From: a virus
IMG/VR virus record: IMGVR_UViG_3300017757_000048
Location: 1 to 36,053 of that record
DNA length: 36,053 nt
Reading direction: 5' to 3' (one strand)
Translations under genes and position numbers: made by a program
Part shown: piece after piece, positions 3,433 to 26,018 of the stretch
Layout: each line of letters begins with the position of its first letter
Position numbering within the stretch: the stretch's first letter is position 1
Notes under the pieces: generated by a model
What the model saw: the letters and a program-made list of their open reading frames with translations, nothing else
Told to the model about the DNA's origin: nothing
Database searches by the model: none

Positions 3433-4496
3433 GCAATTCTTATACATCGCCTCCAGTGTTAGTTGACCCTAGCAGAGTCACAGCAGGCTTGACTCTAAGA
3501 ACAACAGAGATCTCAAAACTTGGAGAACTTGAAAACTATTCTTTTGCTCTTGGTGGTTGTGTTGATGTTGTGGCGCAAAGTTGGGGGAATACTGTTTTTA
3601 GATCAGCAGCAACTTCAAAGACTGATCTTTGTCAGTGGTATATCCCAAGACCGAGCAACATACATAATACATTTAAGTTCTTCGTTTCGTGCCATAGGTC
3701 AGCAAGTGGAAATAAAGTTGGTGGACGTTTAACGTTTCCACTTTCCGGGAACACTTATGAGTCTGAGATTGTGATCACTGATACAAACAGATATGGAAGT
3801 GTTTTTGAAGAACTAACTATCTCAGTCACTGGCACAGAAACGGAAACATTTTGTAGGCTGACATTGTTTATAGAATGTTCAAGTGGCTTTGTAGAAATAG
3901 CAAATGTAAATGGTAGGTGGTCGCCTCTAAGCTCACCACTGACAACAGGAGTTCTTCAACAAGGTACAGATACATTCACACCACAAGGAATTAATAGACT
4001 TGGAGCTGACAGGCCTTTAAGTGCTCGATTTGGTGTAGAGACTATTAACAATATAACGACCATAAGAAAACGAGGCCGAACCTTATTCAATTGGTCGGGA
4101 GCTTTCAACACTATAAGCGGCAGCACCGAACCGGCTAAAGGTATAGGGACTTTCGACCTTGATTTGATGTATTCAATCGTGTCTTTGTTTGGTGGCATGA
4201 ATCAAATAGATGATCTGAACGTGGATGTATTTATCAATGTTGAGAATTATTCAAGTGGTACTTTTGAAGTAGATATATTTGGCTATAGATTAGCCATCGT
4301 TCAAAATGGTTGGAATAGCTATGGGTTGAGTTTAAGACTTAGTGAACTTGCAAACTATAGTCGAGATTTCAGACTATCTATGTACGAAGTTGGCTTGATG
4401 CCAACATCAAGAAATCAAGCGATCTTACTTGGTGATAATAATAAGATCACAAGCTCTCCAGTCTATATCAAAGGCTTGTCGATCATAGGAGTTTAA
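3429..4496 (+). CDS. Putative minor tail protein
   Basis: A 355-residue protein starting within the stop codon of its neighbour (ATGA). The sequence is beta-rich with many Ser/Thr/Asn and few charged clusters, as in tail-tip structural proteins. It contains Cys in CGGCV-like and CHRSA contexts but no clear metal site. No catalytic motif is visible. It is the second of four co-directional genes between the tape measure and the lysin, and probably belongs to the same tail-tip complex. I do not recognise a specific family. Confidence 0.5.
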   Translation: MSNSYTSPPVLVDPSRVTAGLTLRTTEISKLGELENYSFALGGCVDVVAQSWGNTVFRSAATSKTDLCQWYIPRPSNIHNTFKFFVSCHRSASGNKVGGRLTFPLSGNTYESEIVITDTNRYGSVFEELTISVTGTETETFCRLTLFIECSSGFVEIANVNGRWSPLSSPLTTGVLQQGTDTFTPQGINRLGADRPLSARFGVETINNITTIRKRGRTLFNWSGAFNTISGSTEPAKGIGTFDLDLMYSIVSLFGGMNQIDDLNVDVFINVENYSSGTFEVDIFGYRLAIVQNGWNSYGLSLRLSELANYSRDFRLSMYEVGLMPTSRNQAILLGDNNKITSSPVYIKGLSIIGV

Positions 4497-4497
4497 A

Positions 4498-5106
4498 GTG
4501 TTAATACCAACCGGATATAAAAAACTTCCAAATCAACAAGGTTGCTTCAATAACCAATTACTCTTTGGATCAACAGTGAGTCAAATGGCGAGCGCTCTTG
4601 CTCAGATGACACACTGCAAGTTCTTAGGTCAAGCTCATTATTATGTGGGTCAAACTGTTGATGCTACAGTTGGAGGGCGACAAGGTTCAAGCACACTTTA
4701 CAAGAACATAAATCAATATAATCTATTATTTCAAAGCACTCCTATCAGTTCACATTTAGCTTTGATCGTTCAATGTAGAACGGCAGGCGATGTTAATTTG
4801 AATAGTTTTTTTGACGTTCAATTAAGGAATACAACTGGCAACAGTTACTCAGGAACAATCCTTGATCATGGTGTAAGATTTGAGCAAGGTCTTGATTTGA
4901 CAGGTGGCGACTTTGAAACCATGACAGCTTTTACAGGTACACAATTAATTGAAGCGCCAACAAACACGAGCGCAGACTTTCCAAGGCCTTTATTTATTCC
5001 AACTTCAAATCGTGGCCAATTGTTGAATCTACGCTTTGACTTTAATTATGTAGAAGTTTTTACTGTTCATATATATGATTTACTCGTGCCTGAGGTAACA
5101 TCATGA
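4498..5106 (+). CDS. Putative minor tail protein, GTG start
   Basis: A 202-residue protein starting at GTG, one base after the preceding stop (TAAAGTG). No better ATG exists near the N-terminus. The sequence is beta-rich and lacks membrane segments or enzymatic motifs. The end overlaps the next gene's ATG by four bases (ATGA). Size and place between two tail-tip genes suggest a small component of the tail tip, but the family is unknown to me. Confidence 0.5.
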   Translation: MLIPTGYKKLPNQQGCFNNQLLFGSTVSQMASALAQMTHCKFLGQAHYYVGQTVDATVGGRQGSSTLYKNINQYNLLFQSTPISSHLALIVQCRTAGDVNLNSFFDVQLRNTTGNSYSGTILDHGVRFEQGLDLTGGDFETMTAFTGTQLIEAPTNTSADFPRPLFIPTSNRGQLLNLRFDFNYVEVFTVHIYDLLVPEVTS

Positions 5107-8100
5107 CAATAAAAAGAGAACATGGTCGAAGAATCTTCGCTTTACAAGTGAGCGGTTTAGAGTATCGCTATCACAGCACGACACCACCGACCACAACTAG
5201 TCTTGATTCAAACATAGCGACAAGTATTGCTTATATTGATCAAGAGGGTATCTCATCAGTCGGAGCTTTTAGTGCTTCAATTGATCCAAGCGGTGGAGTA
5301 GGACAATACTCAGCCATTTCGATCACCTTGCAAATAGATCGCAAAGGTGGACTTGGTGACCCTGGTGTAATTTTCGGGAGATGTGGCGCAAGAAGCGCAA
5401 GCAAAAGAGCACAATTAACGGGAGATATAAACAGAGTAGAAACGACAATCAAAGTCAATACAGACTTAAGCGGTTTGACTTATCCTCGTTTGTTCCATAT
5501 TGGCTCTGAAACAATCCGAGCAAGTAGCGCCACAAGTTCAATCATCACAGCAACAAGAGCGCAAGGAAACACCACAGCACAAAATCATAACTTAGGATTA
5601 GAAGGTAGTTTTCTTCCTGAAGTCGCAACAGAGATCACAACTTTTAGAGGTAGACGAGCAAAGCTTTTCATGGCTCATCGTTATCCGGATGGAACGGTCA
5701 GCACTTACATTGAAGTGATTAATGGATTTATCGAGCAAAGTCCAATTGTAGAGGCAGGTGATTCTATCTCTCTTTCAATCGTACCATTGACAGCTTTGAT
5801 TGATACTGAGTTAAGCGATAAGATTAATCAAAGTAGACTCGTCCAAGGATATCATTATTTCGATGGCAATTATGGAAGTGCTTTAGAGTATGCTCTTGGT
5901 TTAGGAAATGACAAAGAGAACGCTCCACCGTCTTTAATTCCTGACACGACAGCTTCAATCACTGCTAATACATTTCTTGGCTTGATGGTGAATAATAGCA
6001 GTAGTGAAAATTACTTAGATGACTTTGATACTTCTTTACCAAGTGGACCAGATCGTGACCAATATATTGGGGCTCATCCAAGATACCCAAAACTAAAAAA
6101 GTTCAATGAAGAAAACTTTAATAATGCAGGAGTCTTCCCAACTGGCTTTACTTTCAACACTTCATCTTCATTAGGCCATGATGGATTCATAGTAAATGCA
6201 GATAGCTCTCCAAGCGAGGCACTGACAGCAACTGAAATCACAAATAGTATTTTATTATTATCAGTCAACAGATATGAATTAAAACAACATCAACTTGGAA
6301 CTAGTGAGGTCAAAGAATGGCCGGACGTAATCAATGGTGTTCTTGCCTCAAGTGGTCCAAGTACAACTCAAGGCTTAAGCGGTGGTGTAGCTCGATGGAG
6401 ACTTAATTCAGACAATGTAATTAGAGTTAATAAACTCAGTAATTCTCCTTTTGCTGCTAAGGTTGTTTTGTGGAATGGGTTCAATGGTTTCAGGAACTTC
6501 AAACAACACATAGAATCAGAGTTTGGTTCATCATCTCCAAGGCTCTACACTAACAATGGAACGAGCTTAAACTTTCCTCCAGGTATTGGTCTTTATTATC
6601 CTTTAGATATAGGTGCTGAAGATGACCCAATCCCGACAGATCAAGGCGATACATTTACAGAGATAACAGCGTCAACCGAACCAAGAACAGGATTCTTTAA
6701 CTTAAGAAATATAGCTCTTGGTTATTATCAAAACTTTGAATCTAAAATCTTGATTGAAAGTCCTCTTGGATTGCCGACAACTGAAACGGCCGGAGAGACT
6801 TATGATGTAATCGTTAAGTACTTTGACAGATCAACTCAAACAACAAGAAAACAAACTTTCATTGTAACTCATGAGACAGGTGCGACATTTGGCGGTCAAT
6901 CTGTAGGAAGACTTTTACACATAGCAGACTTCAACAACTTCCAAGGAAATGTCAGCTTTGCAGATTGGCAAGGTTCGGAAAGAGTACTGATCTTTAGAGG
7001 AAGTCAAGTAGTTGAAGACAATGCAGGTGAGATCATGCTTAAGCTTCTTGAAAGTGGCGGAGGTGATCAAGTCAATGGAACTTATGACGTTCTTGGAATC
7101 GGTCTTAACATTTCTAGCAGTGACATAGATGAAGAAAGCTTTTTGGCCATCGGTGCTTCTTGTCCTTATACATTTACAAATCAGTTTGCAGGTGATGGAA
7201 CTAATTTAAGACCAACGTTCGACAGTCTTCTGAAACTCATGGGAGCTTGTCTTGTCATGAAGCGAGATGAGACAACCGGCCGAAGTCGTTTAAGTCTTCA
7301 ATCACTTGGTGCTGAAAGGTCAACAGATACATCATTGTCTATTGAGTCGGGCGATTGGCTTGCTGAACCTCCTCCGTATTGGGATATATACGAAGACATA
7401 GTCACACAAATAAAATATGAGTTTGATTATGATATAGATGAAGACAGCTTTTTAAATGAAGTCATCTTCAACAATCAAGAAGCGATCAATCGCTATGGTG
7501 GAGAAAGAAGCAAGATCACTCTGAGTCTTCCCGGAGTGAGTTCAAGAGACTTCGGAAGAAATGCAGGAGATAACTTTAATTTTTTTCTTCCAAGTTCTTC
7601 AAGAATCTTCAACATTCTCTCGAATCCTCTGAGAGTTTGGCGAGGCTTGATCGGTACTGGTCCAAGTGCTTTCTTAGATGTCGGTTCATATGTCACAGTA
7701 AGCTCACCACATCTCAGAGGATATAGTGATTCTTATGGAGTGACCAACGGTGTTGGCATGATTAGATCAATCAATCAAGAGCTAATGAGCGAGGGTTGTG
7801 AGATTGAACTATTAACGACAGGTTTAAGTCCAGTAGCTTGGAACGCAACAGCTAAGGTTAGCCTTGCTCCGACAAGTACAACTGTTTTACTCGCTACCGA
7901 TGATTTCAGCTTAAGCGATGTTGATGATGTGAGCTTCTTTGCAGTCGGTGACGTTGTTGATTATCTACCTCCTGGCGATCATGACAACGCTATCATAGGC
8001 CTTGAAATTCAAAGCATATCTTCAAATACTATCACGTTTACAAGTGCTCATGGTATCTCTACAATTGGAGGAACTTTAGAGCCAACCACTTTCGCAAATG

Positions 8101-14084: not shown

Positions 14085-14330
14085 ATGGATTTGAATCCGA
14101 TTGATGTCGGCCAATTATTGGCGCTCTTGGTTTTTTGGTACACGACAAACAAGGACAAAGGCGAGAAAGCTGAAGATCTTGGGAAGATGAAGCAACAAAT
14201 CAAGTCTCTCGAAACAAGAGCAGGCAAAGTTGACAATCAACTCAACGAGATCAATGGAAAGCTAAATCAGCTGATGGAATCAAACGCACGACTTGAGACC
14301 CAGTTGACAGTTCTTATCAATCAAAATTGA
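14085..14330 (+). CDS. Small protein with one hydrophobic segment and coiled coil
   Basis: An 81-residue protein. A short hydrophobic stretch (residues about 9 to 19, GQLLALLVFWY) is followed by a long coiled coil with Lys/Glu/Gln/Asn heptads to the C-terminus. The layout resembles small phage membrane-associated or haemolysin XhlA-like proteins, although the hydrophobic part is N-terminal here. It follows two membrane protein genes and its stop overlaps the TTG start of the deaminase. Confidence 0.4.
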   Translation: MDLNPIDVGQLLALLVFWYTTNKDKGEKAEDLGKMKQQIKSLETRAGKVDNQLNEINGKLNQLMESNARLETQLTVLINQN

Positions 14331-17105: not shown

Positions 17106-17188
17106 GTTTTTTTGCAGAAAAAAAAAGTTATAGACAAAGTAAGCTAACATTGTTAATAGTTGTTCACTCTATATATAAGGAGACTGAC

Positions 17189-17893
17189 ATGGAGACAAAG
17201 AAGAATGGACTTGCTCTAAAAGATGAGCTTAGTATTCAGGTAATGAAAAGACGTGACATAACAGCGACAACCAAGCTGATCTTGATTGCAATTCTTAGTC
17301 GAGTTGATTGGAGTAATTGGGAAAGCTCAAGAAACTATAAGATCGTTTCACAAAGAGACTTAGCAGATTTGGCCGGTACTAATTACAAGACAGTATCAAA
17401 GTGTATGACACAATTAGAGAAGCTTAATCTTATTAAGCGAGATGTCTTTAAGAGCACGAAAACAACAGCACCACCAATCAAGGTTAACATTGACCTTATT
17501 CAAGCTTATGAAGCAAAGAAGATTAAACGATATAAGAAGAAAGAATCAAAGAAACAAACACCAACTTTTAAGGCTGAAGAAGTTCAAAGCTTATCAGGGG
17601 GTGATAACCAAAGACTATCAGGGGGTGATAACCAAAGGCTATCAGCAGGTGATAACCAAAAACTATCAGAGGGTGATAACCAAAGACTATCACTATCAAT
17701 AGATAACAATAATACTTCAATATATTCTCAATATATAAACCCATCACTTGGCCAAGAGTGTATTAAGGATTCTGCTTATAATGGAGAGGCTGAAGATTGG
17801 GGAACTCCAAACGCTGAACTCTGGGGAGATCATTTACAGAATGATCTTTTAAATGTTATCCCTCAAAACACTGACATGAAAGACAAGGACTAA
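17189..17893 (+). CDS. Replication initiator (winged-helix) with internal origin
   Basis: A 234-residue protein. Residues about 1 to 100 look like a winged-helix domain of phage replication initiators: TTKLILIAILSRVDW, QRDLADLAGTNYKTVSKCMTQLEKLNLIKRD. Residues about 135 to 166 consist of an eight-residue repeat (LSGGDNQR type, four copies) encoded by DNA iterons. The C-terminal acidic part could contact the helicase loader encoded directly downstream, as lambda O contacts P. GGAG precedes the ATG at 17189; an earlier in-frame ATG at 17150 lacks a good site. It diverges from the leftward operon. Confidence 0.75.
   Translation: METKKNGLALKDELSIQVMKRRDITATTKLILIAILSRVDWSNWESSRNYKIVSQRDLADLAGTNYKTVSKCMTQLEKLNLIKRDVFKSTKTTAPPIKVNIDLIQAYEAKKIKRYKKKESKKQTPTFKAEEVQSLSGGDNQRLSGGDNQRLSAGDNQKLSEGDNQRLSLSIDNNNTSIYSQYINPSLGQECIKDSAYNGEAEDWGTPNAELWGDHLQNDLLNVIPQNTDMKDKD
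17592..17687 (+). repeat. Origin iterons: four 24-bp repeats inside the initiator gene
   Basis: Four 24-bp units begin at 17592, 17616, 17640 and 17664. Each holds an inverted repeat TATCA-N5-TGATA followed by ACCAAA. Partial TATCA boxes continue at 17688 and 17694. Lambdoid phages likewise keep origin iterons within gene O. The initiator encoded here is the expected binding protein. Confidence 0.85.
17688..17745. other. AT-rich candidate DNA unwinding element
   Basis: Immediately after the iterons the sequence becomes very AT-rich, with runs such as AATAATACTTCAATATATTC and AATATATAAA. This is the expected place for duplex opening next to an iteron origin. It is still coding sequence of the initiator. 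Confidence 0.5.
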
Positions 17894-21451: not shown

Positions 21452-22825
21452 ATGAGTGAAATCAAACTAAATCCTTTACAGCTTGAAATCATGAGAAGCA
21501 TAACACGCAAGGACAAGGTTATTGCTGCTCGGTGTGGTTGGGGTTCGGGCAAGACTTCAGCTCTTGTATTCTCCATCCTTTACCTCTCCAAGACTCGCCC
21601 TGGTACTTCATCGCTATTGGTCACAGATACGACTCCAAGATATAACTCAGTCTTGATGCCAGAGATGGAGAAGTGGCTTGGTCCACTTGGTTGGACTTAT
21701 AACCACACCATGAAACAATGGACTGATAAACACACAGGGAGTCAAGTATGGTGTCGCAGTTACTTTCGACCGGGAACAAGAGAAGCGACTCACAATCCTC
21801 TTGAGGGCTTGAACGTAACAAGCGGAGTCTGCTTGATTGATGAATGTCAGACCTTGACTCAAGAGGTAGCTCATAAAGCTCTAGGTCGTTTAAGAGCAGG
21901 ACCAAGCCCAATCTTGATCTTAGTTGGCTTGCCTGTCGTTGATGCTTGGTGGGTCAACATGGCAGAGAATCAAGGACTCACACCTTTGTTTTTTAGTTCA
22001 TATGTCAACCAAGACAATCTTGCTGATGAATGGTTCGAGGCTACAAAGATGCTTCCTCCCGACGAGCGAGAAGCGATGATCATGAATAAGCCAAAGCCTC
22101 CAACCGGCTTGATATATTCTGAGTTCACCGAGGCTAGCCATGTCGTCAAAGATTGGCAGTATAAAGAAACCATGACAGGTCGTATCGCCATCGATTGGGG
22201 CTTCAGGAAACCAAGTGTGTTAATCATTGCGTATGATGATGAGCTTCAAGCTTCGGTCATCTGTCATGAGATCAATCCAAAGGAAGTTACAACTCAACAG
22301 CTCACCACTTTAATACTTGCCATCGCTTGGCCAAGGTCATTGAAAGATCAAGCTCCTGGTCCACGAATATGGTTAGATACTGGAGTGGCTGACAAGGCAG
22401 GGAAAGCAAGGAATGATCAAACAGGTCAAAGCGCTTTCCGAGTAATGAGACAATTACCACCGAGAGGACTTGGAGTTCCACTGAGACACACTACCGATCC
22501 AATCAAGGTCGATATACTCAATGGAGTCCAAAGACTTAAACGAGCATTAAACTCTAAACGTTATCTAGTCACCAAAGAAGTTTGGGACAAGGGAGAGCGA
22601 GCAAGTGGAAACAGTATAAGGAAAGCTATTCTTTCTTATGCTTGGGATAACAAAGAGCAGCCCAAAAAGGATGGTCGAGAGGATCCGCTTGACGCTCTCC
22701 GATATGACTGCATAACATTCAATTGGAATGAAAGCGCACTCGATAAACAATACAAGCCAAGAAGATCAGCAAGTGGTAAAGGTAGAAAAGTAAATGTCGG
22801 AGGCTCAAAGACAAGGAGTTTTTAA
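21452..22825 (+). CDS. Terminase large subunit
   Basis: A 457-residue packaging motor. Walker A is GWGSGKTS (residues 29 to 36) and Walker B is GVCLIDECQT (about 128 to 137, with the catalytic acidic pair). The C-terminal nuclease domain begins IAIDWGFRKPSVLIIAYD (about 245), where the Asp would bind metal, and includes the later EDPLDALRYD element usual near the end of TerL. The stop TAA overlaps the ATG of the second-frame open reading frame (TAATG) and lies one base before the GTG of the cytosine methyltransferase. Confidence 0.92.
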   Translation: MSEIKLNPLQLEIMRSITRKDKVIAARCGWGSGKTSALVFSILYLSKTRPGTSSLLVTDTTPRYNSVLMPEMEKWLGPLGWTYNHTMKQWTDKHTGSQVWCRSYFRPGTREATHNPLEGLNVTSGVCLIDECQTLTQEVAHKALGRLRAGPSPILILVGLPVVDAWWVNMAENQGLTPLFFSSYVNQDNLADEWFEATKMLPPDEREAMIMNKPKPPTGLIYSEFTEASHVVKDWQYKETMTGRIAIDWGFRKPSVLIIAYDDELQASVICHEINPKEVTTQQLTTLILAIAWPRSLKDQAPGPRIWLDTGVADKAGKARNDQTGQSAFRVMRQLPPRGLGVPLRHTTDPIKVDILNGVQRLKRALNSKRYLVTKEVWDKGERASGNSIRKAILSYAWDNKEQPKKDGREDPLDALRYDCITFNWNESALDKQYKPRRSASGKGRKVNVGGSKTRSF

Positions 22826-22827
22826 TG
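22805..22827. repeat. 23-bp direct repeat at the methyltransferase start
   Basis: Twenty-three bases including the AAGGAG box, T5AATG and start codon, identical to 23979 to 24001. The offset is 1174 bp, so the two copies flank the cytosine methyltransferase gene. Confidence 0.95.
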
Positions 22828-23922
22828 TGGATAATCCCAAAGAACTTACCCATATTTCATTATGCGCAGGATATGGAGGCATTGATTTTGGACTCTCAAG
22901 AACTCTCGGATCAATTAGAACAGTCTGTTTTGTGGAGATCGAAAGTTTCGCAATCAAAAACCTGGTCTCGAAGATTGAAAAGGGATTGCTCTCTTCAGCT
23001 CCTATATTCACAGACCTTAAAAAGTTCCCTTGGCCACTCTTTAATGGAAAAGTGGACATCCTCAGTGGAGGCTTCCCTTGTCAGCCTTTTAGCGTTGCCG
23101 GAAGAAAGCAAGGAGATCAAGACCCACGACACTTGTGGCCATACATCACAAAAGGAATTGAACAGTTGGGAAGACCTCCCATTGTTTTCTTCGAGAACGT
23201 TTCAGGAATCATCTCAAGTAAACTCAAAGGAAACGATTGGACAGACAGAGAGGGGACTTCAGTTTTGTTGCATGTCCTTAGAGAGCTGGAGAGATTGGGT
23301 TACAAAACAACGGCTGGCATATTCTCAGCGGCTGAAGTCGGTGCACCACACCAAAGAAAGAGAGTGTTTATTCTTGGTGTCAGAAATGAACTCAAACAGA
23401 GCGGAGTTGATTTTATCAATGAACTCATTAAGTCTAATCAATCAGACAGAGATACAACCTGGCCAGCATCAAGAGGGCAAAGACAGCACTGGCACGAACC
23501 ACCAAGAGTTACGATGGGCGACACCTTGCACGATGGATCACTTACCTCCAAAGAGTCAAGAAACACTAATGAGACAAGCGACAACAATACGCAAGGGCAG
23601 GAAAGCACCATCGAATCTAAGAGAGCAAGTAGACCCTGTGGCAATGGAAGTTTACAAAAAAGTGAAGTGGCCCACTCCAACAGCTGGAATGGAAATGAGA
23701 GAACTTGGTGCAAAAATAGATCATTTCAAGAGAAGACAAAGTTTGAAGAAACAAATAGGATTGCAAGGGACAATCACGCTAGACAGTCAGAAGTTTGTAG
23801 GAAATCTCAATCCTCGGTGGGTAGAGACACTCATGGGACTCCCAATTGGTTGGACTATGCCAAGCTTTTTAAATCCTGTGAAAGTAGAACAGATGAGCTT
23901 CGATTGCTCGGGAATGGAGTAG
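22825..23922 (+). CDS. Second-frame ORF inside the methyltransferase gene, possibly an overprinted gene
   Basis: A 365-codon frame starting at ATG 22825 (the ATGTG start overlaps the methyltransferase GTG), six bases after the shared AAGGAG and coupled to the TerL stop. It is +1 relative to the methyltransferase. Its translation is not random-looking: WATPCTMDHLPPKSQ (231 to 245), WPTPTA (282 to 287) and LNPRWVETLMGLPIGWT (328 to 344). From memory these recall motifs of phage proteins found with cytosine methyltransferases. Either the locus is dual-coding or the frame is conserved by constraint on the main gene. Expression is unproven. Confidence 0.45.
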   Translation: MWIIPKNLPIFHYAQDMEALILDSQELSDQLEQSVLWRSKVSQSKTWSRRLKRDCSLQLLYSQTLKSSLGHSLMEKWTSSVEASLVSLLALPEESKEIKTHDTCGHTSQKELNSWEDLPLFSSRTFQESSQVNSKETIGQTERGLQFCCMSLESWRDWVTKQRLAYSQRLKSVHHTKERECLFLVSEMNSNRAELILSMNSLSLINQTEIQPGQHQEGKDSTGTNHQELRWATPCTMDHLPPKSQETLMRQATTIRKGRKAPSNLREQVDPVAMEVYKKVKWPTPTAGMEMRELGAKIDHFKRRQSLKKQIGLQGTITLDSQKFVGNLNPRWVETLMGLPIGWTMPSFLNPVKVEQMSFDCSGME

Positions 23923-23978
23923 TTCCACAAACAGCTGGTAAAGCTTTCACTTTGTTATGGTATGAATTAATAAACTAA
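22827..23978 (+). CDS. C5-cytosine DNA methyltransferase
   Basis: A 383-residue enzyme that methylates cytosine C5 using S-adenosylmethionine. Motif I is ISLCAGYGGIDFG (10 to 22). Motif IV is GGFPCQPFS with catalytic Cys85. Motif VI is FFENVSG with Glu-Asn-Val at 123 to 125. Motif VIII is QRKRVF at about 176. Motifs IX/X follow as RLLGNGVVPQTAGKAF near the end. The region about 190 to 345 is hydrophilic and should hold target recognition. The start is GTG 22827, eight bases after AAGGAG. The same DNA is open in a second frame. It probably protects phage DNA from host restriction. Confidence 0.9.
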   Translation: MDNPKELTHISLCAGYGGIDFGLSRTLGSIRTVCFVEIESFAIKNLVSKIEKGLLSSAPIFTDLKKFPWPLFNGKVDILSGGFPCQPFSVAGRKQGDQDPRHLWPYITKGIEQLGRPPIVFFENVSGIISSKLKGNDWTDREGTSVLLHVLRELERLGYKTTAGIFSAAEVGAPHQRKRVFILGVRNELKQSGVDFINELIKSNQSDRDTTWPASRGQRQHWHEPPRVTMGDTLHDGSLTSKESRNTNETSDNNTQGQESTIESKRASRPCGNGSLQKSEVAHSNSWNGNERTWCKNRSFQEKTKFEETNRIARDNHARQSEVCRKSQSSVGRDTHGTPNWLDYAKLFKSCESRTDELRLLGNGVVPQTAGKAFTLLWYELIN

Positions 23979-24001
23979 TCAAAGACAAGGAGTTTTTAAT
24001 G
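23979..24001. repeat. 23-bp direct repeat at the cyclase start
   Basis: Second exact copy, supplying the ribosome binding site and ATG of the cyclase gene. The cassette between copies could have been inserted or could be lost by recombination across the repeat. Confidence 0.95.
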
Positions 24002-24823
24002 GAGTTTATAGAAACTAAATTAGCAATCGTTCTTCTTGATCTTATAGGCTCAACTCAGTTTGTCCAATCGGTTGGCGCTATGAAGTCAGCTCAATGGCTC
24101 CAATATCATGATAGACTTGCAAGGTCTTTAATCTACCGTTTCAATGGTCGAGAGATAGACCGCTCTGATGGATTCCTCCTGAGCTTTGAGCGACCAATTG
24201 ACGCTGTAAACTTTGCTCTTACTTATCAAGAGACAATCCCACCAAAAACAAAGCTAGGTTGTCGGATTGGGATTCATTGGGGGAAGATAGTTGAAGTTAA
24301 GCAAGCTGAGATCTACACCATGACTGGAGCTAAGTCTGTCGAGCTTGAGGGAGTGGCCAAGAACATCTCAGCTCGGACAATGTCAATCTGTCAAGCCGGT
24401 CAAGTGCTGCTTACTCTTGAAGCCATGAAAGCTATCCAAGGACGAACTAATAGTTTCACACCAAGAGGAACTAGATATGCTTGTGTTGGTGAATACAGAT
24501 TCAAAGGAGTCAAGGAGACTCAAATCATTTATGCCGTTGGTTCAACTATTGAATCTTTGCAACCTCCACCAAGTGGAAGCAAGGTCAAGCGAATCGGTGG
24601 ACCAGGTAAGATCAAGAGCAGAATAAGAGATCGAAAATTGAAAGAATGGATTGTTTGGTTCTTGGTTCGTTATTGCTTGATAATGATCTTTTATATGATC
24701 TCAACTCTTATCCCAATCGTGATCAATCCTTACACTCGGAAGATGAATGAGCTTGATGACTTGTTTCATTGGGTTGATTATATAGTTGACTTCATAGCTA
24801 TGTTTTTAGGAGGTGTATTTTAG
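23999..24823 (+). CDS. Class III nucleotidyl cyclase with C-terminal membrane segments
   Basis: A 274-residue protein. Residues about 8 to 185 form a class III cyclase domain: metal-binding Asp14 (LLDLIGST) and Asp57 (RSDGFLLSF), the RIGIHWGKI strand (89 to 97), and the transition-state Asn122/Arg126 pair (NISAR) followed by GQVLLT. The domain end is YRFKGVKETQIIYAVG. The usual substrate-selecting Lys appears as Ile53 and the Asp as Glu115 by my manual alignment, so the nucleotide specificity is open. Residues about 215 to 245 and 260 to 274 look membrane-embedded. Such an enzyme is unusual in a small phage. Confidence 0.8.
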   Translation: MEFIETKLAIVLLDLIGSTQFVQSVGAMKSAQWLQYHDRLARSLIYRFNGREIDRSDGFLLSFERPIDAVNFALTYQETIPPKTKLGCRIGIHWGKIVEVKQAEIYTMTGAKSVELEGVAKNISARTMSICQAGQVLLTLEAMKAIQGRTNSFTPRGTRYACVGEYRFKGVKETQIIYAVGSTIESLQPPPSGSKVKRIGGPGKIKSRIRDRKLKEWIVWFLVRYCLIMIFYMISTLIPIVINPYTRKMNELDDLFHWVDYIVDFIAMFLGGVF

Positions 24824-25537
24824 ATGCAATATATGGGAGGAAAATCAAGAATAGCTTATAAATTAGTCAATTTTATGAGCTTAGAACGTCTTGAAAATAT
24901 GACTTGGGTAGAGCCTTTTATGGGTTCTGGTAAGGTATTGGAAAAAGTCAAAGACCCTAGAATAGGTTCAGACATAAACAGTGAGTTGATCTCTTTGTTT
25001 AAGATGATACAAGAGGGATACGAACCACCTAAAATTGTAACTGAAAGTTTTTATAATTTAGTCAAAAAAAATCCTCATATTTACCCGGAACATTTAAGAG
25101 GCTTCTTGAGTTTTGCTTGTTCTTTTGGTGGACATCGATGGGATGCATTTGCAAAGAACAAAAGAAATCACAATTTTGCTTTAAGTGGTTTTAGATCATT
25201 AATGAAACAAAAGCCACTTTTAAAAGGTGTCAAGTTATTATCAACAGATTACAAGTCTTTAAAATTAACGGAACGATCTTTGATTTATTGTGATCCACCT
25301 TATAAGAATACTAAAGGTTATGGATTTAAGTTTGATCATGATGACTTCTATCAATGGTGTATAAACAAGAAAAATGATGGTCACTTAGTTTTTATTAGTG
25401 AATATAACGCACCTTTTGATTTAGCATGGTCACAAGAAGTAAGTATTTCTTTTGATGCAAAATCGAACAAGCAAAAAAAGACAGAGAACCTTTATAGAGT
25501 CCATGAAAAATCAAAATTTAAATTAATTACCTATTGA
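24824..25537 (+). CDS. D12-class N6-adenine DNA methyltransferase (Dam-like)
   Basis: A 237-residue enzyme that transfers a methyl group to adenine N6. The S-adenosylmethionine motif is WVEPFMGSGKV (about 28 to 38), preceded by MQYMGGKSRIAYKL at the N-terminus. The catalytic motif is CDPPYKNT with Asp-Pro-Pro-Tyr at 157 to 160. Order and spacing suit the D12/alpha class. Its DNA looks more AT-rich than the flanking genes, which hints at recent acquisition. It begins directly after the cyclase stop. Likely role: protection against restriction or marking of phage DNA. Confidence 0.88.
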   Translation: MQYMGGKSRIAYKLVNFMSLERLENMTWVEPFMGSGKVLEKVKDPRIGSDINSELISLFKMIQEGYEPPKIVTESFYNLVKKNPHIYPEHLRGFLSFACSFGGHRWDAFAKNKRNHNFALSGFRSLMKQKPLLKGVKLLSTDYKSLKLTERSLIYCDPPYKNTKGYGFKFDHDDFYQWCINKKNDGHLVFISEYNAPFDLAWSQEVSISFDAKSNKQKKTENLYRVHEKSKFKLITY

Positions 25538-25550
25538 TTAGAGGTGTCTT

Positions 25551-26018
25551 TTGAACGCTGTTGAAGATAGAGAAGAGGCCAAAGAGTTTTCCAAGGATGT
25601 CAAAGCCCGTCGGGGGTGGTGGTTCTCTGTCATGTTCTTGGTCTTAATAGTTGTCCTGATCTTATTCCTGACTTATGTGAAGATCGTTGACGAAAACCGA
25701 GATGTCTTAGTTGGGATACTTGGCGTGATCACTGGATCAATCTCTTCAATGGTTGCTATTGCGAGCGGTCGTGATCCATCCGAAGTGGAAGAACTGAAAG
25801 ACAAGTTGGCCTCAGCAAATGCAGACAGAGAAGCTTTGATCGCTAGACTTAGAGACGCACAAATACAAATGCAATTGAAGACCGACCAACTCATGGAGCT
25901 TCAAGGAGCTGTCATTGACAAGCTTTCCTTATTCAGTGGACAGAAACCAATCAAGACAAGATCAGTTGATCAAGTGATCCTTGATCCGAATGTTGAGCAG
26001 TGGATTCCTAAAAAGTAG
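25551..26018 (+). CDS. Membrane protein with coiled coil, holin-like candidate
   Basis: A 155-residue protein starting at TTG 25551 after GAGGTG. Two hydrophobic stretches (about residues 23 to 44, and 52 to 71, DVLVGILGVITGSISSMVAI) are followed by a coiled coil (about 75 to 120). The second segment resembles, from memory, hydrophobic parts of some phage holins. It is the last gene before a strong terminator. Whether it is a lysis protein or a partner of the membrane-tailed cyclase cannot be decided from sequence. Confidence 0.5.
   Translation: MNAVEDREEAKEFSKDVKARRGWWFSVMFLVLIVVLILFLTYVKIVDENRDVLVGILGVITGSISSMVAIASGRDPSEVEELKDKLASANADREALIARLRDAQIQMQLKTDQLMELQGAVIDKLSLFSGQKPIKTRSVDQVILDPNVEQWIPKK

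Follow-up and report, generated by a model that had tools for sequence, protein, structure and literature searches.

The stretch analysed here (the window, 36,053 bases) is the record of an uncultured virus with genes for a portal, a major head protein, a tape measure, a tail fibre and terminase. It holds a gene for a putative class III nucleotidyl cyclase, followed, beyond an inserted methyltransferase gene, by a gene for a small membrane protein, herein called the partner (Table 1). The cyclase frame is open from ATG to TAG and encodes 274 amino acids. In phmmer searches of PDB sequences it matched the mycobacterial class III cyclases Rv1900c (E 4.6e-12) and Ma1120 (E about 1e-6 to 1e-5), and a family profile added trypanosome receptor cyclases to the matches. 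An AlphaFold2 model was built from 22 family sequences (alignment A1; mean pLDDT 82); in a structure search its closest folds among the matches listed were again Rv1900c (Z 22.6, rmsd 2.1 A over 171 residues) and Ma1120 (Z 22.2), both with Z about 22. The Pfam Guanylate_cyc score of the window protein (19.0 bits) falls just below the gathering cut-off of 21.9, a near miss that is outweighed because the fold and the catalytic residues fit class III. The assignment to class III, made in a first-pass annotation of the sequence, is thus confirmed by sequence and model comparison, the latter being a check that the annotation itself had proposed, and the enzyme probably makes a cyclic-nucleotide signal. 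The membrane tail described in the same annotation is likewise borne out: hydropathy finds a hydrophobic, membrane-type stretch in 21 of the 22 A1 sequences, and the model has a helix at 202-242.

Table 1. Features of the cyclase locus in the window.
Feature	Position	Strand	Evidence or remark
Left copy of exact 22-bp direct repeat (ribosome-binding site and ATG)	22806..22827	+	flanks C5 methyltransferase gene
Right copy of 22-bp direct repeat, ending at cyclase start codon	23980..24001	+	flanks C5 methyltransferase gene
Putative class III nucleotidyl cyclase, 274 aa	23999..24823	+	PDB sequence matches, fold match, invariant catalytic residues, dN/dS
Cyclase catalytic domain, about residues 1-185	23999-24553	+	PDB sequence matches, fold match
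Cyclase C-terminal membrane segment, about residues 214-246	24638..24736	+	hydropathy in 21/22 relatives; model helix 202-242
N6-adenine DNA methyltransferase gene	24824..25537	+	Pfam MethyltransfD12, E 1.2e-13
Partner protein of 155 aa with TTG start; two membrane helices followed by a coiled coil	25551..26018	+	present in 116/123 loci; alignment A2, hydropathy, dN/dS

The metal-binding residues D14 and D57 and the transition-state residues N122 and R126, all four named in the first-pass annotation, are each invariant in 110 distinct phage members of the family. Parts of the metal-Asp motif were present in some search seeds, and the invariance of D14 and D57 is to that extent built in; that of N122 and R126 is not a selection effect, because neither residue occurred in any seed. 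The residues that would select the substrate are atypical, as the annotation had held, and one of its two positions requires correction. The hairpin before D57, GREID-RS-DGF in the phages, lacks one residue of the usual GxxxKxxGDGF. When Rv1900c and trypanosome GRESAG 4.1/4.3 are aligned by HMMER, their specificity Lys or Asn falls opposite D54 rather than I53; one alignment to Ma1120 is ambiguous. The substrate Lys position is therefore most likely the invariant D54, as judged from these alignments; Ile53, which had been named instead, was rejected because of the one-residue deletion. The other position, E115, stands: it occupies the place of the substrate Asp, seven residues before N122. A125 corresponds to A167 of Ma1120 (numbering from PMC4215837).

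Both members of the resulting pair, D54 and E115, are acidic and invariant in the phage family (n=110). Published base-selecting sets comprise K/D for ATP and E with C, G or T for GTP (PMC4215837), Y50/D94/R97 or F60/K104/F109 for UTP, and F100/R142/Q144 for CTP (PMC4215837, PMC11224242). The phage pair is neither the Lys/Asp pair of ATP nor the Glu/Cys-Gly-Thr pair of GTP, and fits none of the sets checked. D54/E115 thus predicts no particular base, and the family may define a new base-recognition set (Asp/Glu) within class III.

The partner has hydrophobic segments at about residues 19-48 and 50-73, followed by a long, charged, coiled-coil-type helix (hydropathy, alignment and model). Its structure model is of poor quality (pLDDT 62), insufficient for a fold search. 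Profile searches gave no known effector or holin family above cut-off, the weak matches being to small families of phage proteins without assigned function (phrog_9990, E 2.8e-5). Pfam returned no cyclic-nucleotide-binding domain in the partner, and the protein has no room for one. No homologue of the partner was found in 299 Pseudomonadota genomes, a set searched without a positive control.

The partner was present at 116 of 123 distinct cyclase loci, and the other seven run off their contig within about 75 bases. It lies downstream of the cyclase in 115 loci and upstream in one (L027/L175), and in many relatives its start overlaps the cyclase stop by four bases. In L163 the gap between the two comes from a frameshift in the cyclase frame. 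A search seeded with the partner found none lacking a cyclase except in L164, a contig that starts 91 bases before the partner. These are counts of related loci and hence not independent; they were drawn from the best 80 matches per scan, and several contigs are short. The catalytic domain of the cyclase has a dN/dS of about 0.02-0.09 and residues 1-110 of the partner one of 0.02-0.06, both similar to those of terminase and portal, with higher values in the membrane tail of the cyclase and in the last 45 residues of the partner; many pairs are saturated at synonymous sites, and the values rest on the closer pairs. Gene order and substitution patterns together show the cyclase and the partner to be mutually obligate neighbours, both under strong purifying selection. 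The gene was first described as standing alone, a picture that has to give way to that of a fixed two-gene unit. The partner is easy to miss in the window because a methyltransferase gene has been inserted between it and the cyclase.

In the main group of phages the pair is immediately flanked by terminase and portal, and in L028 and L178 it lies among nucleotide-metabolism genes. Across relatives the flanks vary (terL/terminase, ThyX, dCMP deaminase, DNA methyltransferases, portal) and the pair stays together. The partner accompanies the cyclase in all nine long phage records, whereas relatives of the terminase and portal of the window were found in two of the nine, with the proviso that long records may be fragments, which leaves the absence of a related terminase unproven record by record. 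These comparisons of gene order show that the two genes move together among phages whose packaging genes differ. One of its carriers, a 96-kb phage (L027), also has genes for an adenylosuccinate synthetase (Pfam E 2.3e-66) and for a PurB-like protein of the Lyase_1 family (3789-4856 and 4849-5949), and is possibly, on these gene assignments, a phage with 2-aminoadenine DNA.

In the window, the operon has taken up two methyltransferase genes. The N6-adenine methyltransferase gene lies between cyclase and partner in the phage of the window only, and is not judged part of the cyclase-partner module. A C5-cytosine methyltransferase gene entered between terminase and cyclase, and is flanked by an exact 22-bp repeat. 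In the near-identical L002 both insertion sites are empty. Each of the two orphan methyltransferase genes sits exactly between genes of the terL-cyclase-partner operon, with start and stop signals restored. The C5-cytosine methyltransferase gene (22827-23978) is overlapped, in another frame, by a second long frame (22825-23922, + strand). In the sequence ATGTG this second frame begins with the ATG and the methyltransferase with the GTG two bases later. Homologues of the second frame occur in L030, L179, L156, L223, L203, L180, L222, L226, L094 and L241. In most of 11 homologues it is open over nearly the whole gene, with 0-3 stops where the third frame has 3-51; a single stop interrupts it in L094. 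Between phages its product shows 39-75% identity, and it matches phrog_1008, annotated as DNA methyltransferase (E 4.7e-9). By its reading pattern the second frame looks like a conserved overprinted gene.

About 280 stretches in IMG/VR encode members of the cyclase family. The phage-isolate collection yielded none, and the matches on plasmids are cyclases with no more than 22-30% identity. Among 84,980 bacterial and archaeal species, a scan that was seeded with motifs, and could miss bacterial copies lacking them, confirmed only eight relatives, all 29-35% identical and all parts of proteins of about 1000 amino acids in Rubrivivax and Rhizobacter. In a tree of 39 sequences, a phylogeny the first-pass annotation had proposed as a means of telling phage from bacterial kin, the phage group was separated from the bacterial group with 100/100 support; long branches leave the exact root uncertain. 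One Rubrivivax record (G001, with L099, L101 and L103-L105) shows an expansion of the TIGR04510-like cyclase domain, which is present in nine or more of its large proteins; in those read, Pro replaces the transition-state Asn. Literature searches, in which coverage of subscription papers was incomplete, found no description of phage-encoded adenylate or guanylate cyclases of this kind.

Receptors for a cyclic nucleotide were sought in the same phages. No PF00027 protein was found in the nine phage records, and the same search was positive in 11 of 14 control genomes. The statement in the first-pass annotation that no cyclic-nucleotide-binding effector is visible holds for effectors with PF00027, but it passed over the partner gene. 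At 17150-17893 the window has a gene that weakly matches a Crp-like helix-turn-helix (E 5e-6, slightly below cut-off) and adjoins a gene for a DnaC/IstB-like ATPase. It was rejected as an effector on the weakness of that match, the lack of PF00027 and this neighbour; it is probably replication-related rather than a cyclic-nucleotide receptor.

Pairs of a cyclase and an effector serve bacteria in defence against phages, and destruction of such signals by phages is known. We consider it probable, with room for doubt, that the cyclase and its partner form one mobile, phage-borne membrane signalling module that is like Pycsar in logic and is not a member of it. A membrane-bound cyclase dimer would make a 3',5'-cyclic nucleotide from some nucleoside triphosphate, and the partner would belong to the same complex in the membrane, as a transducer dedicated to this cyclase; such a complex is suggested by genetic linkage and selection, which fall short of proof. 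From there the route may divide, and we give about equal weight to the two branches. The partner could execute the output itself, as a membrane effector that the cyclase gates, or its coiled coil could feed the state of the membrane to the cyclase as input, with the output going to receptors of the host. The module might serve to control the infected cell during infection, for example by blocking competing phages or by setting the end of the cycle, which is the least certain step. Superinfection exclusion, reprogramming of the host and interference with immunity, the roles suggested in the first-pass annotation, are all conceivable uses of it. A more specific form of this proposal is possible and can be advanced only tentatively: the pair may be a self-contained phage system, in which a cyclase of new base specificity is joined to a membrane effector that the phage also supplies, gated either by the cyclase or by the product of the cyclase without a known cyclic-nucleotide-binding domain, and directed against competing phages or timing the end of infection.

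Other readings assign the same two genes different tasks. The pair could act in host signalling, with cAMP or cGMP acting on CRP-type regulators of the host and the partner only anchoring or regulating the cyclase. The class III assignment with adenylyl cyclases as closest folds, the lack of a phage-encoded receptor and a coiled coil suited to a regulatory role all agree with this. However, D54/E115 is the pair of neither adenylyl nor guanylyl cyclases, the membrane helices of the partner are conserved beyond the needs of a simple anchor, and we regard this reading as somewhat unlikely. Alternatively, a holin-like partner, timed or licensed by the cyclase, could make the pair a lysis or membrane-collapse device. 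Late expression is likely from the main-group position between terminase and portal, and a small, two-helix membrane protein with weak phage-family matches would suit such a device; but the partner matches no holin family, L028 and L178 carry the pair in a setting of nucleotide metabolism, and the window has a separate Rz-like spanin candidate (14085-14330; phrog_739, E 1.3e-4). To our knowledge, no cyclase-controlled holin has been described, and a role in lysis appears unlikely.

It is highly doubtful that the cyclase fold is dead, or repurposed as a nucleotide-binding sensor or decoy, since all four metal and transition-state residues, N122 included, are invariant in the 110 phage members; the points that speak for it are the loss of the transition-state Asn in the nearest bacterial relatives (AKP/AKA) and the acidic character of both phage base-selecting positions. 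A phage-borne Pycsar system, in which a pyrimidine cyclase and a membrane effector would kill on infection by other phages, has the same two-gene logic of a class III cyclase and a membrane protein. Moreover, BcPycC selects its base by an Asp and an Arg (D94 and R97; PMC11224242), with which the invariant D54-R55 of the phage hairpin may be compared. This reading is nevertheless very unlikely, given that PADLOC, run without a positive control, returned no match to cyclase or partner at E up to 1, that the cyclase model lacks the N-terminal helix of PycC, and that the partner has no cyclic-nucleotide-binding domain.

If the signalling module proposed here is correct, an active cyclase locked to its own membrane protein in widespread phages would reverse the familiar picture, in that the maker of the signal would be viral. 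The pair may also define a membrane transducer that works without a cyclic-nucleotide-binding domain. Such a small and strongly conserved pair, with no more than two genes, lends itself to direct tests of substrate, interaction and phenotype.

Among known systems, Rv1900c and Ma1120 resemble the phage cyclase in catalytic fold, metal-binding Asps and transition-state Arg. They are only 25-27% identical to it, have a hairpin one residue longer before the second Asp, and carry Lys or Asn with Asp where the phage enzyme has D54/E115; unlike them, the phage cyclase has a membrane tail and a fixed membrane partner. The best family match of the phage cyclase is TIGR04510, 'putative peptide modification system cyclase' (E 6e-42), with 144 bits over positions 7-204 of 814, short of the curated cut-off of 400 bits. 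The Rubrivivax and Rhizobacter proteins resemble this family, and both share with the phages the motifs GREIDRSDG and GAK-x-x-E-x-x-G-x-AK. The Rubrivivax and Rhizobacter proteins, however, are multidomain, have Pro or Ala (AKP/AKA) where the phages have N122 (AKN), and have no partner gene beside them. The SLATT two-helix effector domains resemble the partner in having two membrane helices and then a helical part. SLATT matches weakly in 13 of 14 partners (best E 1.6e-4) and falls below its cut-offs (20.5 against 26.5 bits in Pfam, 15.2 against 35 in NCBIfam); hydropathy alone may explain the match, because AbrB, an unrelated membrane family, matches almost as well. Membership in SLATT was rejected on these scores; the 299 Pseudomonadota genomes hold only two SLATT proteins, too few for a profile comparison. 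A further comparison is with Pycsar (PycC with PycTM or PycTIR). An N-terminal helix is described as a hallmark of PycC (PMC11224242), whereas the phage cyclase model begins with strand 2-14 and has no helix before it, and PycC is absent from the 50 structural matches listed for the model. Membership in Pycsar was rejected on this missing helix and on a partner devoid of a cyclic-nucleotide-binding domain. The phage pair differs further in its base-selecting residues and in being phage-borne, and shares with Pycsar the logic of a class III cyclase set beside an effector-type gene.
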